Position numbers and translations under genes: made by a program. This document shows, one piece after another, positions 4,101 to 12,316 of a DNA stretch of 12,316 bases. Each line of letters begins with the position of its first letter. Positions within the stretch are counted from its first letter, which is position 1. This DNA comes from Tychonema litorale BBK16. GTDB taxonomy: Bacteria > Cyanobacteriota > Cyanobacteriia > Cyanobacteriales > Microcoleaceae. The notes under the pieces were generated by a model. The model made no database searches. It was not told the origin of the DNA and saw only the letters and a program-made list of their open reading frames with translations. The DNA is taken from assembly GCF_021648855.1 (NCBI RefSeq), contig NZ_JAKJHX010000143.1, forward strand, positions 1-12,316, given 5' to 3'.

Positions 4101-4107
4101 GATACAG

Positions 4108-4172
4108 AGGAGACGGCAGTGCCGTTTCCCTACCCAAAATAACATTGTAGGGATACGGCACTGCCGTCTCCT
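4108..4172. repeat. 65-bp inverted repeat, copy 1 of a palindromic repeat family
   Basis: Two 26-nt arms (4108-4133 and 4147-4172) are reverse complements at 25 of 26 positions around a 13-nt AT-rich loop. Each arm carries its own inner palindrome, ACGGCANTGCCGT (4113-4125 and 4155-4167). The left arm is identical over all 26 nt to 12179-12204. It lies between the convergent hmpF and PD-(D/E)XK genes and may terminate both. It looks like a non-autonomous MITE or REP-type element. Confidence 0.85.
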
Positions 4173-4182
4173 AATTTCTTAA

Positions 4183-6092: not shown

Positions 6093-7310
6093 ATGAGCAT
6101 CAACCAATTAAATCACCTGTTAGCAGTACCACCTGATCCTTTGCAAATTCCCACAACACCGACTGTAACTTCAACTGCTACTACAGATGCAGGCGAACCG
6201 CCAATTTATTTTTCCCTGATAATTCCCACCTACAACGAGTGCAAAAATGTCAAGACGATTATCGAGAAACTCAGCCAATTGCTCGACGGGAGTATTCCTG
6301 GTGACTATGAACTGATTGTAGTCGATGACGATAGTCCCGATCGCACCTGGGAAGTAGCCCTGTCCCTAACACCCGACTATCCGCAGTTGCGGGTGATGCG
6401 GCGCGAGCACGAGCGGGGACTCTCTACAGCCGTGATTCGTGGATGGCAAGTGGCCAGAGGTGAGATTTTGGGTGTCATCGATGCCGACTTGCAACACCCC
6501 CCGGAGACGCTGTTGCAGCTTTTGGCAGAAATTAAGCGGGGAGCCGATTTAGCTGCTGCTAGCCGCCACGTTGGCCAGGGAGGTGTCAGCGACTGGAGTG
6601 TGATCAGGCGATTTTTATCGCGGGGAGCTCAGACTGTGGGATTGGTGATACTACCGGGTGTTGTGGGCAGAGTGTCGGATCCGATGAGCGGCTATTTTAT
6701 GGTGCGCCGCAGTTGTATCGCTGGCAAAACGATGAATCCAGCCGGTTACAAAATTTTGATTGAAGTGCTAGGTAGAGGCGATATCCGCTGGATTGGAGAA
6801 GTTGGTTATGTGTTTCAGGAGCGCCAAGAAGGGGAGAGCAAAGTTACCTGGAAACAGTATATTGAGTATTTGCGGCATTTGCTTAGATTGCGGTTTTCCC
6901 GCTGGCCGATGGGCAAGTTTGTACGATTTGGTATCGTGGGTTTCAGCGGGGTGTTTGTGAATATGGGGGTTTTGTACGTGCTGCGGGATATGCTCAATTG
7001 GGAGCTGACTCGCAGTCTGATTTTTGCTGCTGAATTGGCAATTATCAGTAACTTTTTATGGAATGATTTATGGACTTTTGGGGATATTTCTAAGCGCCAG
7101 CCAGGAAAACGCCAGCGATTGAAACGACTGTTGAAATTTAATACGATTTGCTTGATGGGTTTGATTTTGAATGTGCTGCTGGTTAATTTAATGTTTAATG
7201 TTTTTGGGATGAATGCCTATTTGGCTAACTTAATTGCGATCGTGGCTGTGACTCTGTGGAATTTCTGGATCAATATGAAGCTGAGTTGGCGGGTGACGGA
7301 TGTTAATTAG
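6093..7310 (+). CDS. Polyprenyl-phosphate sugar synthase (GT2, DPM1-like) fused to GtrA domain
   Basis: The 405-aa protein has two parts. Residues 40-265 form a GT2 domain of dolichol-phosphate mannose synthase type: IPTYNE (44-49), VVDDDSPD (76-83), the metal-binding DAD (130-132) in [11 protein letters not shown], and SDPMSGYF (195-202). Residues 274-400 form a GtrA domain with about four membrane segments, beginning [20 protein letters not shown]. By family it transfers a hexose, likely mannose or glucose, from a nucleotide sugar to polyprenyl phosphate at the inner membrane; the GtrA part may anchor or flip the product. The low-complexity Thr/Pro-rich first 35 residues are probably unstructured. 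There is no clear SD before the ATG. The next gene is a GT39-type enzyme that could use such a lipid-linked sugar. Sugar identity cannot be read from sequence. Confidence 0.92.
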
Positions 7311-7372
7311 GGAATGGGGAATTGGGAATTGGGAATTGGGAATGGGGAATTGGGAATGGGGAATTGGGAATT
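7310..7372 (+). repeat. Nine-unit heptad tandem repeat GGGAAT(T/G)
   Basis: Nine contiguous, perfectly phased 7-mers GGGAAT followed by G,T,T,T,G,T,G,T,T fill 63 bp. The first G is the last base of the TAG stop of the GT2 gene. This matches the short tandemly repeated repetitive (STRR) class of filamentous cyanobacteria. A few ACCAATA-type units follow at about 7380-7397. Confidence 0.93.
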
Positions 7373-7404
7373 GTCAAAATAACCAATAACCAATAACCCT
7401 TTAA

Positions 7405-9185: not shown

Positions 9186-9213
9186 AACGGATTCTGTAAC
9201 GGATTTAACGGAT
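9186..9213. repeat. Three AACGGAT copies at the tilS 3' end
   Basis: AACGGAT occurs at 9186-9192, 9198-9204 and 9207-9213 in the 33-bp gap between the convergent GT39 and tilS genes. The third copy covers the first base of the tilS stop codon (TAA at 9207-9205) and the adjacent codons. No terminator hairpin is visible in this gap. Confidence 0.5.
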
Positions 9214-10302
9214 GGATGGAGGTTCGGCAATATATCTGATTGTAATCCAAGGTTTTTCGACGCTAGCGATCGCACCTGATGGAAATGGATCGGTTTGCGA
9301 TCGATTAGGTGCTACGATCAAAGCAGTCAGTTTTTCTACGCTTTCAAAACTGGGAGCATTTGGCAGTATGTGTTGTAGTAGCTGTCGCATTGCGCGTCGC
9401 TGCAAGGAAAGGGGTGCTGCTTGCAAAATCTGGCGATTTAACTTGACTGGAAGTTGAAAATTTATGTGCTCTCCTTGGTTAATTTCTGACATGGCTTGTT
9501 GTAGCAAGTCGGTTGCTGCAAGTTCGAGATATTCGACGTCGGCGCGCAGGAGTTCGGCTGTTTGAGCTAACGCTTGTTGGGTTTTTGGGTTAAAATGAGT
9601 TTCTAAATAAGGCAATAATTCCGATCGAATGCGGTTGCGGGCATATCTTAAGTCCTGATTGGTGGAATCTTCCCAAATTGGTAGTTTTTGCTCTTGACAA
9701 AATTGACCTGTTTGCGATCGAGTTATTTCTAATAAGGGACGAACCAGAGTGATTTTCGATTTCTGATTTTCATGCGGATTTCCCAATCCAAAATCTAAAA
9801 TCGGCAATCGAAAATCTGCCAGGGGGCGAACCCAAGTGAGGGCAGAAAGTCCGTCTGCGCCGCTACCGCGAATTAGGTTGTAGAGGAGGGTTTCAGCGCG
9901 ATCGCTCGCTGTATGACCTGTAATAATGTAGGGGTAGTTGTTGGCGATCGCAATTTCGGTTAAACTTTGATATCGCCAGTTGCGGGCTGATGCTTCTGTT
10001 GTTGGAATGCGATCGGCTGTTTTTTGATAATAGCATATTCCCCAGTTTTTAGCTAAACTTGCTACATGATTTGCATTAGCTTCCGAGTCCGAACGCCAAC
10101 GGTGATCGCAGTGAGCAATTGCTAATTCCCAGCTCCATTTTGACTGCAAATCTAGGAGTAATTTGAGTAAACACAGGGAATCTTGTCCACCGGATACTGC
10201 TACTAAGAAGCGCTGATTTGGTGGCAAAACTTTTCGTTGCAGCAGTGTCCGGTGCAGTTGAGCATGGAGTTGTGTCCATTTTCCATTTGGAAGATTGGGC
10301 AT
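9205..10302 (-). CDS. tilS: tRNA(Ile)-lysidine synthetase TilS
   Basis: TilS attaches lysine to C34 of the CAU-anticodon tRNA-Ile using ATP, converting its decoding from AUG to AUA; it is normally essential. With ATG at 10302 the protein is 365 aa. The PP-loop motif SGGQDS is residues 37-42, followed by AHCDHRWR (63-70), SARNWRY (105-111) and ITGHTASDRAETLLYN (127-142). Residues 163-184 are an insertion made by a 66-bp palindromic DNA unit at 9751-9816, between VRPLA and LVRPLLEI. Upstream in-frame starts (ATG 10323, TTG 10362) would add residues coded by heptad repeats, and even ATG 10302 lies within a repeat unit and has no SD, so the start is uncertain. It ends 33 bp from the convergent GT39 gene. 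Function is firm. Confidence 0.95.
   Translation of the reverse strand: MPNLPNGKWTQLHAQLHRTLLQRKVLPPNQRFLVAVSGGQDSLCLLKLLLDLQSKWSWELAIAHCDHRWRSDSEANANHVASLAKNWGICYYQKTADRIPTTEASARNWRYQSLTEIAIANNYPYIITGHTASDRAETLLYNLIRGSGADGLSALTWVRPLADFRLPILDFGLGNPHENQKSKITLVRPLLEITRSQTGQFCQEQKLPIWEDSTNQDLRYARNRIRSELLPYLETHFNPKTQQALAQTAELLRADVEYLELAATDLLQQAMSEINQGEHINFQLPVKLNRQILQAAPLSLQRRAMRQLLQHILPNAPSFESVEKLTALIVAPNRSQTDPFPSGAIASVEKPWITIRYIAEPPSIR
9751..9816. repeat. 66-bp nested palindrome inside tilS (22 codons)
   Basis: Outer arms GATTTTCGATT (9751-9761) and AATCGAAAATC (9806-9816) are perfect 11-bp inverted repeats. Inside them GATTTT (9765-9770) pairs with AAAATC (9797-9802), and GGATT (9776-9780) with AATCC (9785-9789) around a TCCC loop. 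The unit starts exactly at a codon boundary and has a length divisible by three. The GATTTTAGATTTTGGATT pattern on the minus strand looks like intergenic repeats of filamentous cyanobacteria. Confidence 0.78.
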
Positions 10303-10331
10303 AGGGAATGGGGAATAGGGCATTGGGCATT
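10297..10331. repeat. Five-unit heptad repeat covering the tilS start
   Basis: Phased 7-mers GGGCATA, GGGAATG, GGGAATA, GGGCATT, GGGCATT run from 10297 to 10331. The tilS ATG (complement of CAT at 10300-10302) lies in the first unit. Same STRR class as 7310-7372. Confidence 0.8.
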
Positions 10332-10367
10332 GGTTCTTATAGATAACAGTAACAAGTAACAACTAAC

Positions 10368-10409
10368 TAATGACCAATGACCAATGACCAATGACTAATG
10401 ACTAATGAC
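10368..10409. repeat. Six-unit heptad repeat (C/T)AATGAC
   Basis: Six contiguous 7-mers (TAATGAC, three CAATGAC, two TAATGAC) occupy 42 bp and end 2 bp before the stop codon of the KGK gene. Irregular TAACAAG/TAACAAC-like units lead into them from about 10340. Confidence 0.9.
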
Positions 10410-10411
10410 TT

Positions 10412-10834
10412 TTAACTCCACATTCCTACACTGTTAGGGTTAGTATTACGATACTTATAAATAGGAAAATTAGTATTTACATCTGTCGATTCGCTAATAT
10501 TTGAGTCTTTATTTGCGTCAATTTCGTCTGAGCTATTTTGGTTGTACTCTTGTGTGCTATCTGAGTCCTCAGAGGCGGCAGGAAGGGATTTTTGTTCTAT
10601 GAGTTCCTGGTCAGGACAAAACTCTAGACGCACTATAACTTTTCCTTTTGTCCATGATTTGCCTGAACTTAAAAGCTCGCAATCCATACCGTCTACAAAC
10701 AATCTTTCTTCTAGCAGTTTTGACTGCATAATAGTCAAGAATTCGCTGACTTTAAATGTGCATTGATACATCAAAGCGCTGGCGGGAGTAGACAAAACAT
10801 CGTCTTCTTGGAGAAATATTTGTGGACTTTTCAT
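10412..10834 (-). CDS. KGK-domain protein
   Basis: The 140-aa protein carries the cyanobacterial KGK domain, named for its KGK tripeptide. Here it is residues 63-65 in WTKGKVIVRLEFCPD (61-75), preceded by a helix-like stretch (FKVSEFLTIMQSKLLEERLF). The family has no established function that I know of. Residues 80-140 form an acidic, Ser/Asp/Asn-rich tail that is probably disordered. There is no signal peptide or membrane segment. The ATG has no SD. Heptad arrays flank it on both sides, so it sits between ccsA upstream and tilS downstream on the same strand without tight spacing; independent transcription is likely. Confidence 0.85.
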   Translation of the reverse strand: MKSPQIFLQEDDVLSTPASALMYQCTFKVSEFLTIMQSKLLEERLFVDGMDCELLSSGKSWTKGKVIVRLEFCPDQELIEQKSLPAASEDSDSTQEYNQNSSDEIDANKDSNISESTDVNTNFPIYKYRNTNPNSVGMWS

Positions 10835-10843
10835 TTTAGGAAA

Positions 10844-10976
10844 GTGTTGAGTGTTGACTGTTGACTGTTGGCTGTTGACTGTTGACAGTTGGCTGTTAGT
10901 TATTAGTTAGCAGTTACCAATAACTACTAACTAATAACTACTAACTAATAACTACTAACCAATAACTGTTAACTGC
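10844..10976. repeat. Nineteen-unit heptad array with a central hairpin
   Basis: A strict 7-bp phase holds for 133 bp. The left part consists of GTGTTGA/CTGTTGA/CTGTTGG units. It shifts through CTGTTAG, TTATTAG, TTAGCAG and TTACCAA into alternating TAACTAC/TAACTAA units. At the switch, 10897-10916 pairs with 10921-10940 (19 of 20 positions) around loop CCAA. It occupies nearly the whole gap between ccsA and the KGK gene. Confidence 0.9.
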
Positions 10977-10981
10977 TTATC

Positions 10982-12052
10982 TTAGAAAAACCAACCGTAG
11001 GAATGTAAACCTTTGCCTAATAGATTAACACCTAGATAACAAATCCAAACCACCACAAAACCTGTGGCGGCTAAAATTGCTGGGCGTCTTCCTTGCCAGC
11101 CGCGTGTGATGCGGGAGTGGAGGTAGGCGGCAAACACTAACCAAGTAATCAATGCCCAAGTTTCTTTCGGGTCCCAACTCCAGTACGAGCCCCAAGCTTC
11201 GTTTGCCCAAACGCCGCCTGCAATAATCCCAATAGTCAGCAAAGGGAATCCTAAACCGATAATCCGATAGCTAATGTTATCAAGAGTTTCTGCTAGATTC
11301 AAGCGCTGGGGCGATAGAATTTCTGTGGTTTGAGATTGACTGTTTGCAGAGGTTTGAACTGTTGCGAGTTCTAGGACTGCTGTGTTGCTGAAACCGTTAT
11401 TGCTGGAGTTGAAAGATGGTTCGCTGAATGCTAATCCGCTGTCGGCTAAGGTTTCAATGGTTTGAGGTTCGGAGTTTTGAGGGCGTTGGAGGCGATAGTT
11501 GCTGTTGCGATTGCCGTTGGTACCGAAGGAACTGCCGGTGAGTTCGATTTTTTTGCCGCGGGTGACGACTAAAAATGCGATCGCCAATAATGCTCCTACC
11601 ATCAATGTTGCATAACTCAGCATCATGACGCTGACGTGCATCATCAGCCAGTTGGATTTGAGGGCTGGTACTAGGGGCTCAGCGGACTGCATAGTTGCGG
11701 GTAAGGTGAGGGCGGCAAAGGCAGTAATTGCCATTGCTACGGGCGATGTGGCTACTCCTACTAGGCGCGATCGACTCATGTTCTCGGCGACTAGGTGGAT
11801 GGCGGTGATTCCCCACACTAGGAAAAATAGGGATTCGTAAAGGTTACTGAGTGGGAAGTAGCCGGCTTCTATCCAGCGGGAACCGAGTAAAGCGGCGATG
11901 GAGAGATTCGCGATCGCCATTCCGGCGCTACCTAGGGCTGATAAGTAGGGAATACCAGGAAAAGCGGCTCCTGTCCAGTAAACCAGCATTGTTGAGAATA
12001 GAACGGCAAAGGAGATATTGTCCAGCCAGTTCTGGAGTACAACCAGATCCAT
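10982..12052 (-). CDS. ccsA: Cytochrome c biogenesis protein CcsA (named CcsB in some schemes)
   Basis: This system II protein carries and presents heme for covalent attachment to c-type cytochromes (cytochrome f, c6, c550) on the thylakoid lumen or periplasmic side, working with the Ccs1-type partner. The 356-aa multipass protein has the tryptophan-rich WWD motif WGSYWSWD (287-294) in [20 protein letters not shown], and candidate heme-ligand histidines H139 (LMMHVSVMM) and H350 (GKGLHSYG). A hydrophilic linker of about 90 residues (166-255), rich in Asn, Ser, Gln and Thr, joins the two membrane halves; such a variable linker is usual in cyanobacterial homologs. ATG at 12052 has GGAG (12061-12064) at 8 nt, the best SD in the window. 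No Ccs1 partner gene is in view. Confidence 0.95.
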
Positions 12053-12142: not shown

Positions 12143-12178
12143 AATCCGATCGCCTCGGAATTAATATTACTCACAGCT

Positions 12179-12242
12179 AGGAGACGGCAGTGCCGTTTCC
12201 CTACCATTAATCTGGCGTAGGGAGACGGCATTGCCGTCTCCT
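12179..12242. repeat. 64-bp inverted repeat, copy 2 of the palindromic family
   Basis: Arms 12179-12204 and 12217-12242 are inverted repeats, differing only by two G-T type pairs, around loop CATTAATCTGGC. The left arm is identical to 4108-4133. Inner ACGGCANTGCCGT palindromes are at 12184-12196 and 12225-12237. It lies upstream of ccsA. Confidence 0.88.
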
Positions 12243-12254
12243 CTGTATCTCACT

Positions 12255-12316
12255 AGGACACGGCATTGCCGTCTCCCTACCATTAATCTGGCGTAGGGAA
12301 ACGGCACTGCCGTGTC
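12255..12316. repeat. Inverted repeat, copy 3, cut by the window edge
   Basis: The left arm is 12255-12280, the loop CATTAATCTGGC (12281-12292) is identical to copy 2, and the right arm runs from 12293 and is truncated at 12316. Inner palindromes are at 12260-12272 and 12301-12313. It is separated from copy 2 by 12 nt, so the copies form a tandem pair that may continue. Confidence 0.85.

Follow-up and report, generated by a model that had tools for sequence, protein, structure and literature searches.

The DNA analyzed here, a 12,316-nucleotide window from the draft genome of Tychonema litorale BBK16 (5.27 Mb, 226 contigs), carries the gene for tRNA(Ile)-lysidine synthetase, tilS, and within it a palindromic segment (Table 1). 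The tilS open reading frame (ORF) scores 193.1 bits against its TIGRFAM profile, for which the cut-off is 93.6, and thus qualifies as TilS; the PP-loop motif SGGxDS is present as SGGQDS. Translation likely begins at the ATG at 10302, giving a protein of 365 amino acids, with a TTG at 10362 as the alternative (385 amino acids). As a basis for the ATG start we counted protein P0001, which begins MPNLPNGKW.

Table 1. Features of the tilS locus in the T. litorale window
Feature	Position in the window	Strand	Basis or remark
tilS, tRNA(Ile)-lysidine synthetase	9208..10362	-	ORF, TIGR02432, Pfam PF01171
In-frame heptamer hairpin, 22 codons, DFRLPILDFGLGNPHENQKSKI	9751..9816	-	
Hairpin 5' arm (coding strand), GATTTTCGATTGCCGATTTT	9797..9816	-	inverted repeat and fold
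Hairpin 3' arm (coding strand), AAAATCAGAAATCGAAAATC	9751..9770	-	inverted repeat and fold
AAAATCTAAAATC, exact match to the genome-wide heptamer dimer, antisense to tilS	9790..9802 (= L001 1550-1562)	+	
Further heptamer repeats surrounding the likely start codon of tilS and lying upstream of it, families D1-D4	10280..10412		context only

The palindrome keeps to the reading frame. A codon starts at position 9816 (10362 - 9816 = 546 = 3 x 182), so that the segment comprises 22 whole codons, corresponding to residues 163 to 184 of the 365-residue protein, or 183 to 204 if the TTG is used. Its arms, each 20 nt long, are 90% complementary in a repeat search. Folded as DNA, the segment forms nested stems of 11, 1, 6, 2, and 6 pairs (26 pairs in all; -14.3 kcal/mol; z of -3.59), and none of 200 dinucleotide shuffles does as well. 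The fold as RNA in an 86-nt context is weaker (z of -1.84; 12 of 200 shuffles as good), while the 30-residue T. litorale loop as RNA, set against 500 codon-matched synonymous versions, has a z of -3.11, with 3 of the 500 as low. Coordinates, arms, and fold all agree with an earlier note on this DNA, which described a nested palindrome of 22 codons lying on a codon boundary in tilS. The note also took 22 codons as the size of the insertion, but relative to the usual spacing of 11 residues, described below, the net gain is 19 codons. As a palindrome lying in frame inside a protein-coding gene, the segment shares one defining feature with the Rickettsia palindromic elements (RPEs).

The 66 bp contain three TDNGATT words on the coding strand, in the 5' half, and one on the complementary strand. 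With TDNGATT words in one half, their complements in the other, and arms that pair, it is built like a Class I heptamer hairpin, and the segment is a degenerate hairpin of the heptamer AAAATCY/TDNGATT.

We searched the T. litorale genome with an 86-bp segment and obtained at least 45 matches, namely tilS itself, its own two arms, and 42 partial ones. Among the 40 of 192 first-look candidates that were scored, the best other match to the palindrome covers 40 bases (85%), and a second full copy of the 66 bp, the discrete unit expected of an RPE, was not found. A fixed 66-bp mobile unit was rejected on these grounds, and the proposal of the earlier note that a single such unit had moved in is not supported, as this search recovered partial matches only. 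The 29 other loci that were retrieved mostly show runs of AAAATCY or its complement, and in 28 of them no stop-to-stop frame of at least 100 amino acids crosses the match. The dimer AAAATCNAAAATC has 325 matches in the genome, overlapping within arrays; its backward control has 196, but the control sequence itself occurs within AAAATCT arrays and so provides no clean background for the 325. We also examined 76 distinct arrays, a sample drawn from 30 BLAST loci, 30 pattern loci, and 22 fetched stretches rather than genome-wide (pattern loci and fetched stretches came from the first 100 dimer places listed), and 64 of them lie outside ORFs of at least 100 amino acids. The intergenic style that the earlier note saw in the repeat is therefore borne out, both by these arrays and by the loci with no spanning frame. 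By eye, the 12 arrays inside such ORFs comprise three that are internal and repeat-like (tilS, L088, and L240), five at gene starts (L023, L097, L234, L249, and L251), and four in ordinary coding sequence (L030, L081, and two in L244).

AAAATC arrays also adjoin start codons, on one strand only (loci L002-L030, L081-L110, and L233-L254). In this same sample, which is not genome-wide, 29 of the 76 arrays are followed 0 to 12 nt downstream by the ATG of an ORF spanning at least 100 codons, at exactly 2 nt in 16 of them; on the opposite side start codons are found in 0 of 76, and at random positions in 395 of 16,400. Among these 29 ATGs, one is in fact an internal Met codon of PPDK. In their placement these arrays resemble the TAACTGA repeats, which lie mostly just upstream of start codons in one Beggiatoaceae genome and give a mixed picture in cyanobacteria, as far as the available text of PMC4679880 describes them.

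A peptide search of the same genome returned tilS (E of 9.9e-4) and seven weaker matches (E of 0.27 to 4.4), of which only one falls in a long open frame. That frame, of 2230 amino acids, holds two such heptamer tracts; it may be TamB-like. Peptides like the tilS insert (KNPKSKIQNPKS and KNLKSKIQN) are encoded by heptamer arrays in unrelated proteins of this genome.

To place the segment in the enzyme, we consulted an AlphaFold2 model built from 22 sequences. The segment runs between two short strands (residues 158-160 and 185-187), with pLDDT below 50 at residues 167-180. The model as a whole is moderate (mean pLDDT of 74.9; pTM of 0.54), and residues 213-227 and 240-254 are low as well. In a sequence alignment, the solved TilS structure 3a2k has a gap opposite most of the segment. 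The heptamer segment is probably a fast-changing, floppy loop in an essential tRNA-modifying enzyme.

The length of this loop (loop 1) was compared across cyanobacteria as the number of residues between the loop tryptophan and RPLLEI, a spacing readable in 151 of 160 loci; the nine dropped for want of a readable anchor all lie outside the genus of Microcoleus/Tychonema type to which T. litorale belongs. Outside this genus the spacing is exactly 11 in 80 of 98 loci, and the other 18 comprise 17 at 13 to 26 residues and one that reads 62 only through an altered end motif. Within the genus the loop is enlarged in all 29 genomes read, to between 23 and 92 residues. A further 23 named loci were assigned to the genus by judgement, giving 27 distinct loops in 53 loci; because the loops of these 23 are identical to those of the 29 genomes, they add no independent count. 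Records with identical loops carry the names Microcoleus, Tychonema, Lyngbya CCAP 1446/10, Filamentous cyanobacterium Phorm 6, and several MAGs. No heptamer insert was seen at the loop 1 site in the 98 loci of other cyanobacteria, so one outcome that the earlier note had named as fatal to its idea, the same insertion conserved in distant cyanobacterial TilS, did not appear. The note also proposed testing whether homologs lack the extra residues: outside the genus most have 11, and within it the enlargement is not private to this strain.

The genus-wide enlargement bears directly on age. In a TilS tree computed with the loop removed, the 29 genomes form one clade with support of 100/99, and the presence of the enlarged loop in every one of them makes the insertion old rather than recent, dating it to the stem of the genus or earlier. 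For this reason we rejected a recent insertion confined to this strain. It is accordingly quite improbable that a single mobile palindrome of fixed length, of the Rickettsia type, recently entered the tilS of this strain: the segment is in frame, palindromic, and repeat-like, as such a unit would be, and relatives do have unit-like insertions (two copies of a 21-bp palindrome in the tilS of genome G029 and a 42-bp SDR5-like repeat in that of G014 and G020, both described below), but the enlargement of 29 of 29 loops and the failed search for a second full copy speak against it. An assembly or sequencing artefact, which the draft state of the genome in 226 contigs might suggest, can practically be dismissed, since the site is enlarged in many separate assemblies, including the complete Microcoleus vaginatus HSN003 chromosome (L129).

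Loop 1 of TilS is hypervariable in the genus. Nine two-row sister pairs in the genus tree comprise three of equal and six of unequal loop length, the latter differing by 7, 7, 7, 6, 17, and 45 codons, that is, by 21 bp in three pairs and by 18, 51, and 135 bp in the others. Support for the three 7-codon pairs is 94/74 and 93/72, which is weak, and 99/95. When the tilS DNA of T. litorale is aligned with that of Tychonema bourrellyi, the two differ by a clean step of 21 bp in the 3' arm. The heptamer consensus has a counterpart in RNA, as the excerpt of PMC4476775 describes TDNGATT as the Class I heptanucleotide repeat of the P6b stem-loop in the Nostoc trnL intron, a stem likewise built of repeats, with gains and losses of 7- and 14-nt repeats. 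That stem belongs to a structured intron RNA, whereas the tilS segment is protein coding, so that a change by heptamers must here be divisible by three as well; 21 bp, or three heptamers, is the smallest step that keeps the frame. The loop lengths are compatible with heptamer slippage filtered for frame. The pairs differing by 6, 17, and 45 codons, together with the weak support for two of the 7-codon pairs, mean that heptamer slippage alone is insufficient, and other events occur too.

To ask how far the DNA words are kept, we compared each loop with codon-matched versions of itself; as the species are related, the counts that follow for words and hairpins are not independent. The number of AAAATC/GATTTT words is reached by at most 25 of 500 codon-matched versions in 20 of 29 tilS loops, and in the remaining nine the words are not above the codon null at that level. 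Hairpin energy beats the null by the same measure (at most 25 of 500) in 13 of 29 loops, with a mean z of -1.39, negative in 22 and zero or above in seven. SMC, a second protein with such a loop, has 117 words observed against 24.3 expected over 22 genomes, with 17 of the 22 at or below 50 of 1,000 codon-matched versions. Over 406 species pairs, fourfold sites in the TilS flanks average 67% identity, where saturation would give 28%; the gene has thus diverged without being saturated. The repeat is retained or renewed beyond what codon use explains. The suggestion of the earlier note that the repeat was tolerated because it is open in this frame is plausible, but with words above codon expectation in 20 of 29 loops, tolerance alone may fall short.

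Such word retention is what one would look for if the repeat were kept as a nucleic-acid element in the mRNA or the gene, acting in pausing, in stability, or as a protein-binding hairpin, with the peptide a by-product. In favor of this explanation, repeat words are in excess of codon expectation (5% level) for 20 of 29 tilS and 17 of 22 SMC loops, hairpin energy lies under the null mean in 22 of 29, and arrays elsewhere adjoin start codons on one strand (29 of 76 versus 0 of 76). We nonetheless consider it unlikely, as length and pairing vary widely and seven of the 29 hairpins are no better than the null. Moreover, other lineages hold other repeats in the same loop, so that no particular element is required. 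It is very improbable that the segment is instead an ordinary functional protein insertion under amino acid selection and palindromic by chance. Some residues, SKI and DFRL among them, are shared between species, which speaks for it, yet the length ranges from 23 to 92, codon choice preserves the DNA words in 20 of 29 loops, model confidence at the segment is low, and similar peptides arise from heptamer arrays in unrelated proteins of the same genome.

The explanation that we favor, and hold to be very probably correct, is that the 66 bp are an old insertion of heptamer repeat (TDNGATT/AAAATCY), partly folded back as a hairpin, in a loop of the TilS catalytic domain. Repeat DNA would have entered a single time, no later than the stem of the genus, and later lengthening and shortening would have come about by slippage and by recombination between repeats. 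Selection on an essential protein would remove the outcomes that break the frame, and the enzyme presumably tolerates the peptide as a disordered loop away from the active site.

A different small repeat provides both filled and empty sites in tilS. In the tilS of genome G014, GCG and ATCGC are separated by a 42-bp repeat (14 codons), which recurs in frame in a neighboring gene 765 bp away; G020 also has a copy in tilS. In both genomes the insertion lies between bases 3 and 4 of the HIP1 site GCGATCGC, which at this position of tilS is intact in 24 of the 29 genus genomes, filled in two, and neither in three (G007, G009, and G015). A 22-base piece of the repeat has, with at most two mismatches, 21 matches in G014, 21 in G020, and one in T. 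litorale, as well as 4, 16, and 8 in three other genomes. By eye, loop 1 of the G014 TilS contains another such piece, of 21 bp, between GCG and ATCGG. Small dispersed repeats, with SDR5 in HIP1, were reportedly described by Elhai et al. in 2008. The 42-bp repeat of G014 and G020 is called SDR5-like here for its site, the excerpt of PMC4390886 giving the insertion point of SDR5 as between bases 3 and 4 of HIP1. The insert of the window differs in this respect, for when checked for such placement it was found outside HIP1; the 42-bp repeat is another element at another site. The filled and empty sites nevertheless establish that small repeats do enter tilS of this genus in frame.

Insertions elsewhere in TilS were mapped relative to the reference L077 (182 loci tried, 169 with a usable ORF and 13 dropped, 132 distinct TilS proteins). 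The 132 proteins contain 75 insertions of at least eight residues, some proteins being counted more than once; loop 1 accounts for 39 of these and loop 2 for another 30, so that the two loops together hold 69 of the 75. Loop 2 is built of other heptamers in other organisms: GGGGACT and CCCAATT in two genomes of genus g18, with 58 and 72 amino acids between anchors; AAAATCC words in G190 (genus g88); and CCCCACT in Nostoc FACHB-892 (L198) and G196 (L210). The loci of other genera at which this second loop was seen filled with other repeats are L229 and L075 (G113, G045), L231, L232, L322, L198, and L210. Genome G029 (genus g2) has a 21-bp palindrome in open frame in both TilS loops, and its loop 1 measures 16 residues rather than 11. 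This palindrome has 88 matches in the G029 genome at one mismatch or fewer; 10 of 59 genomes have any match to it, and T. litorale has none. In G089 (genus g32) a large purine-rich repeat with stops and runs of N lies at loop 1. The tilS of this genome (L326, L328) is split there by about 1.1 kb, which may reflect a fault of assembly, an insertion, or a gene that is broken. Separately, a third place in TilS is affected in G077 (L327), whose tilS encodes 33 inserted residues close to reference residue 87, in DNA with CCCTTCGACTTC-like word repeats.

In the T. litorale genome, internal repeat-like arrays were recognized by eye in tilS, in smc (identified by Pfam SMC_N and hinge), and in a PlsY-PPDK fusion (Pfam G3P_acyltransf and PPDK_N). 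The SMC loop spans 62 to 126 residues in all 22 genus loci read and 36 in the one parseable locus of eight from the outgroup, loop parsing having failed in 7 of 30 SMC loci. The PPDK loop, for which parsing failed in 3 of 29 loci, spans 32 to 88 residues in the 19 parseable of 21 genus loci and 20 in the seven parseable of eight outgroup loci. In other species the PPDK loop holds GGGCATC heptamers, as in the sister genome G006, or GAAGAAG-type repeats. That of T. litorale (L286, C1:83803-86175) is different, an in-frame palindrome of CCCTTCGACTACGCTCAGGG type whose 20-bp arm has 159 genomic matches at two mismatches or fewer, L286 included. Besides TilS, at least two core proteins of these bacteria have thus taken up repeats in much the same manner. 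With recurrence in TilS loops 1 and 2, SMC, and PlsY-PPDK, the general idea of the earlier note, that repeat-derived peptides are a source of loop insertions, is supported; its history of one recent insertion is not.

A wider proposal, which we think quite possible without counting it probable, is that a few surface loops of essential proteins in filamentous cyanobacteria (TilS loops 1 and 2, SMC, and PlsY-PPDK) serve as standing landing pads. Unrelated families of small mobile or self-expanding repeats would enter them in frame repeatedly, with renewal of the DNA outpacing its decay, and so go on building peptides that are hypervariable and disordered. The evolution of these loops would then be driven by the repeats instead of by amino acid selection, possibly with a nucleic-acid role of their own.

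In-frame repeat palindromes are known mainly from Rickettsia, with few other cases. The Rickettsia elements were reportedly described by Ogata et al. in 2000 and 2002 and by Claverie and Ogata in 2003. According to PMC6649704, they share with the tilS segment palindromic repeat DNA that lies in frame inside protein genes without destroying the protein. The tilS palindrome differs in being built of heptamers with no fixed unit, in being genus-wide, and in changing by length steps. Furthermore, RPEs lose their repeat identity over time, according to the accessible portion of PMC6649704, whereas in 20 of the 29 tilS loops the words still exceed codon expectation. By analogy of features, the tilS element would work like an RPE, though a repeated full-length unit was not found in the genome search, and its material is a cyanobacterial heptamer repeat. 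Genome-scattered and mostly intergenic heptamer arrays are a further likeness, shared with the TAACTGA arrays and with the GGGGA(C/T)T heptamers of Nostoc, which are 68% intergenic and have an intragenic share above that of xanthomonads (excerpt of PMC4692102); the available portions of PMC4692102 and PMC4679880 differ from the present case in giving no account of hypervariable core-protein loops built from repeats. Inverted repeats or repeat elements inside coding sequence are also reported for nematomorph mitochondria (PMC6649704), for Coxiella MITEs (PMC5896051), and for a palindromic amphipathic repeat (PMC2996958), in each case in other organisms and with other repeats. Among the listed titles and abstract openings of open-licence literature, we found no description of heptamer-built loops in cyanobacterial TilS, SMC, or PPDK.

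In cyanobacteria with genomes of about 5 to 8 Mb, core genes thus contain loops made of repeats from several families, with sites both filled and empty and with length steps that can be measured, so that an old question, whether selfish or slippage-prone DNA feeds new protein segments, becomes testable in a living genus. The same loops carry a warning: kept in alignments, trees, and structure models, they represent repeat DNA and not conserved protein.

Other parts of the window are also rich in repeats. Heptamer-spaced arrays of GGGAATT, CCAATGA, TGTTGAC, and CTAATAA types, apparently intergenic, lie at 7300-7397, 10340-10410, and 10845-10966, and nested palindromes of GAGACGGCAGTGCCGTTTCCC type, in several copies (I1-I9), at 4101-4173 and 12177-12316. 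In addition, the minus-strand ORF at 10982-12052, a putative c-type cytochrome assembly protein, has a long polar middle stretch at about residues 170-250.
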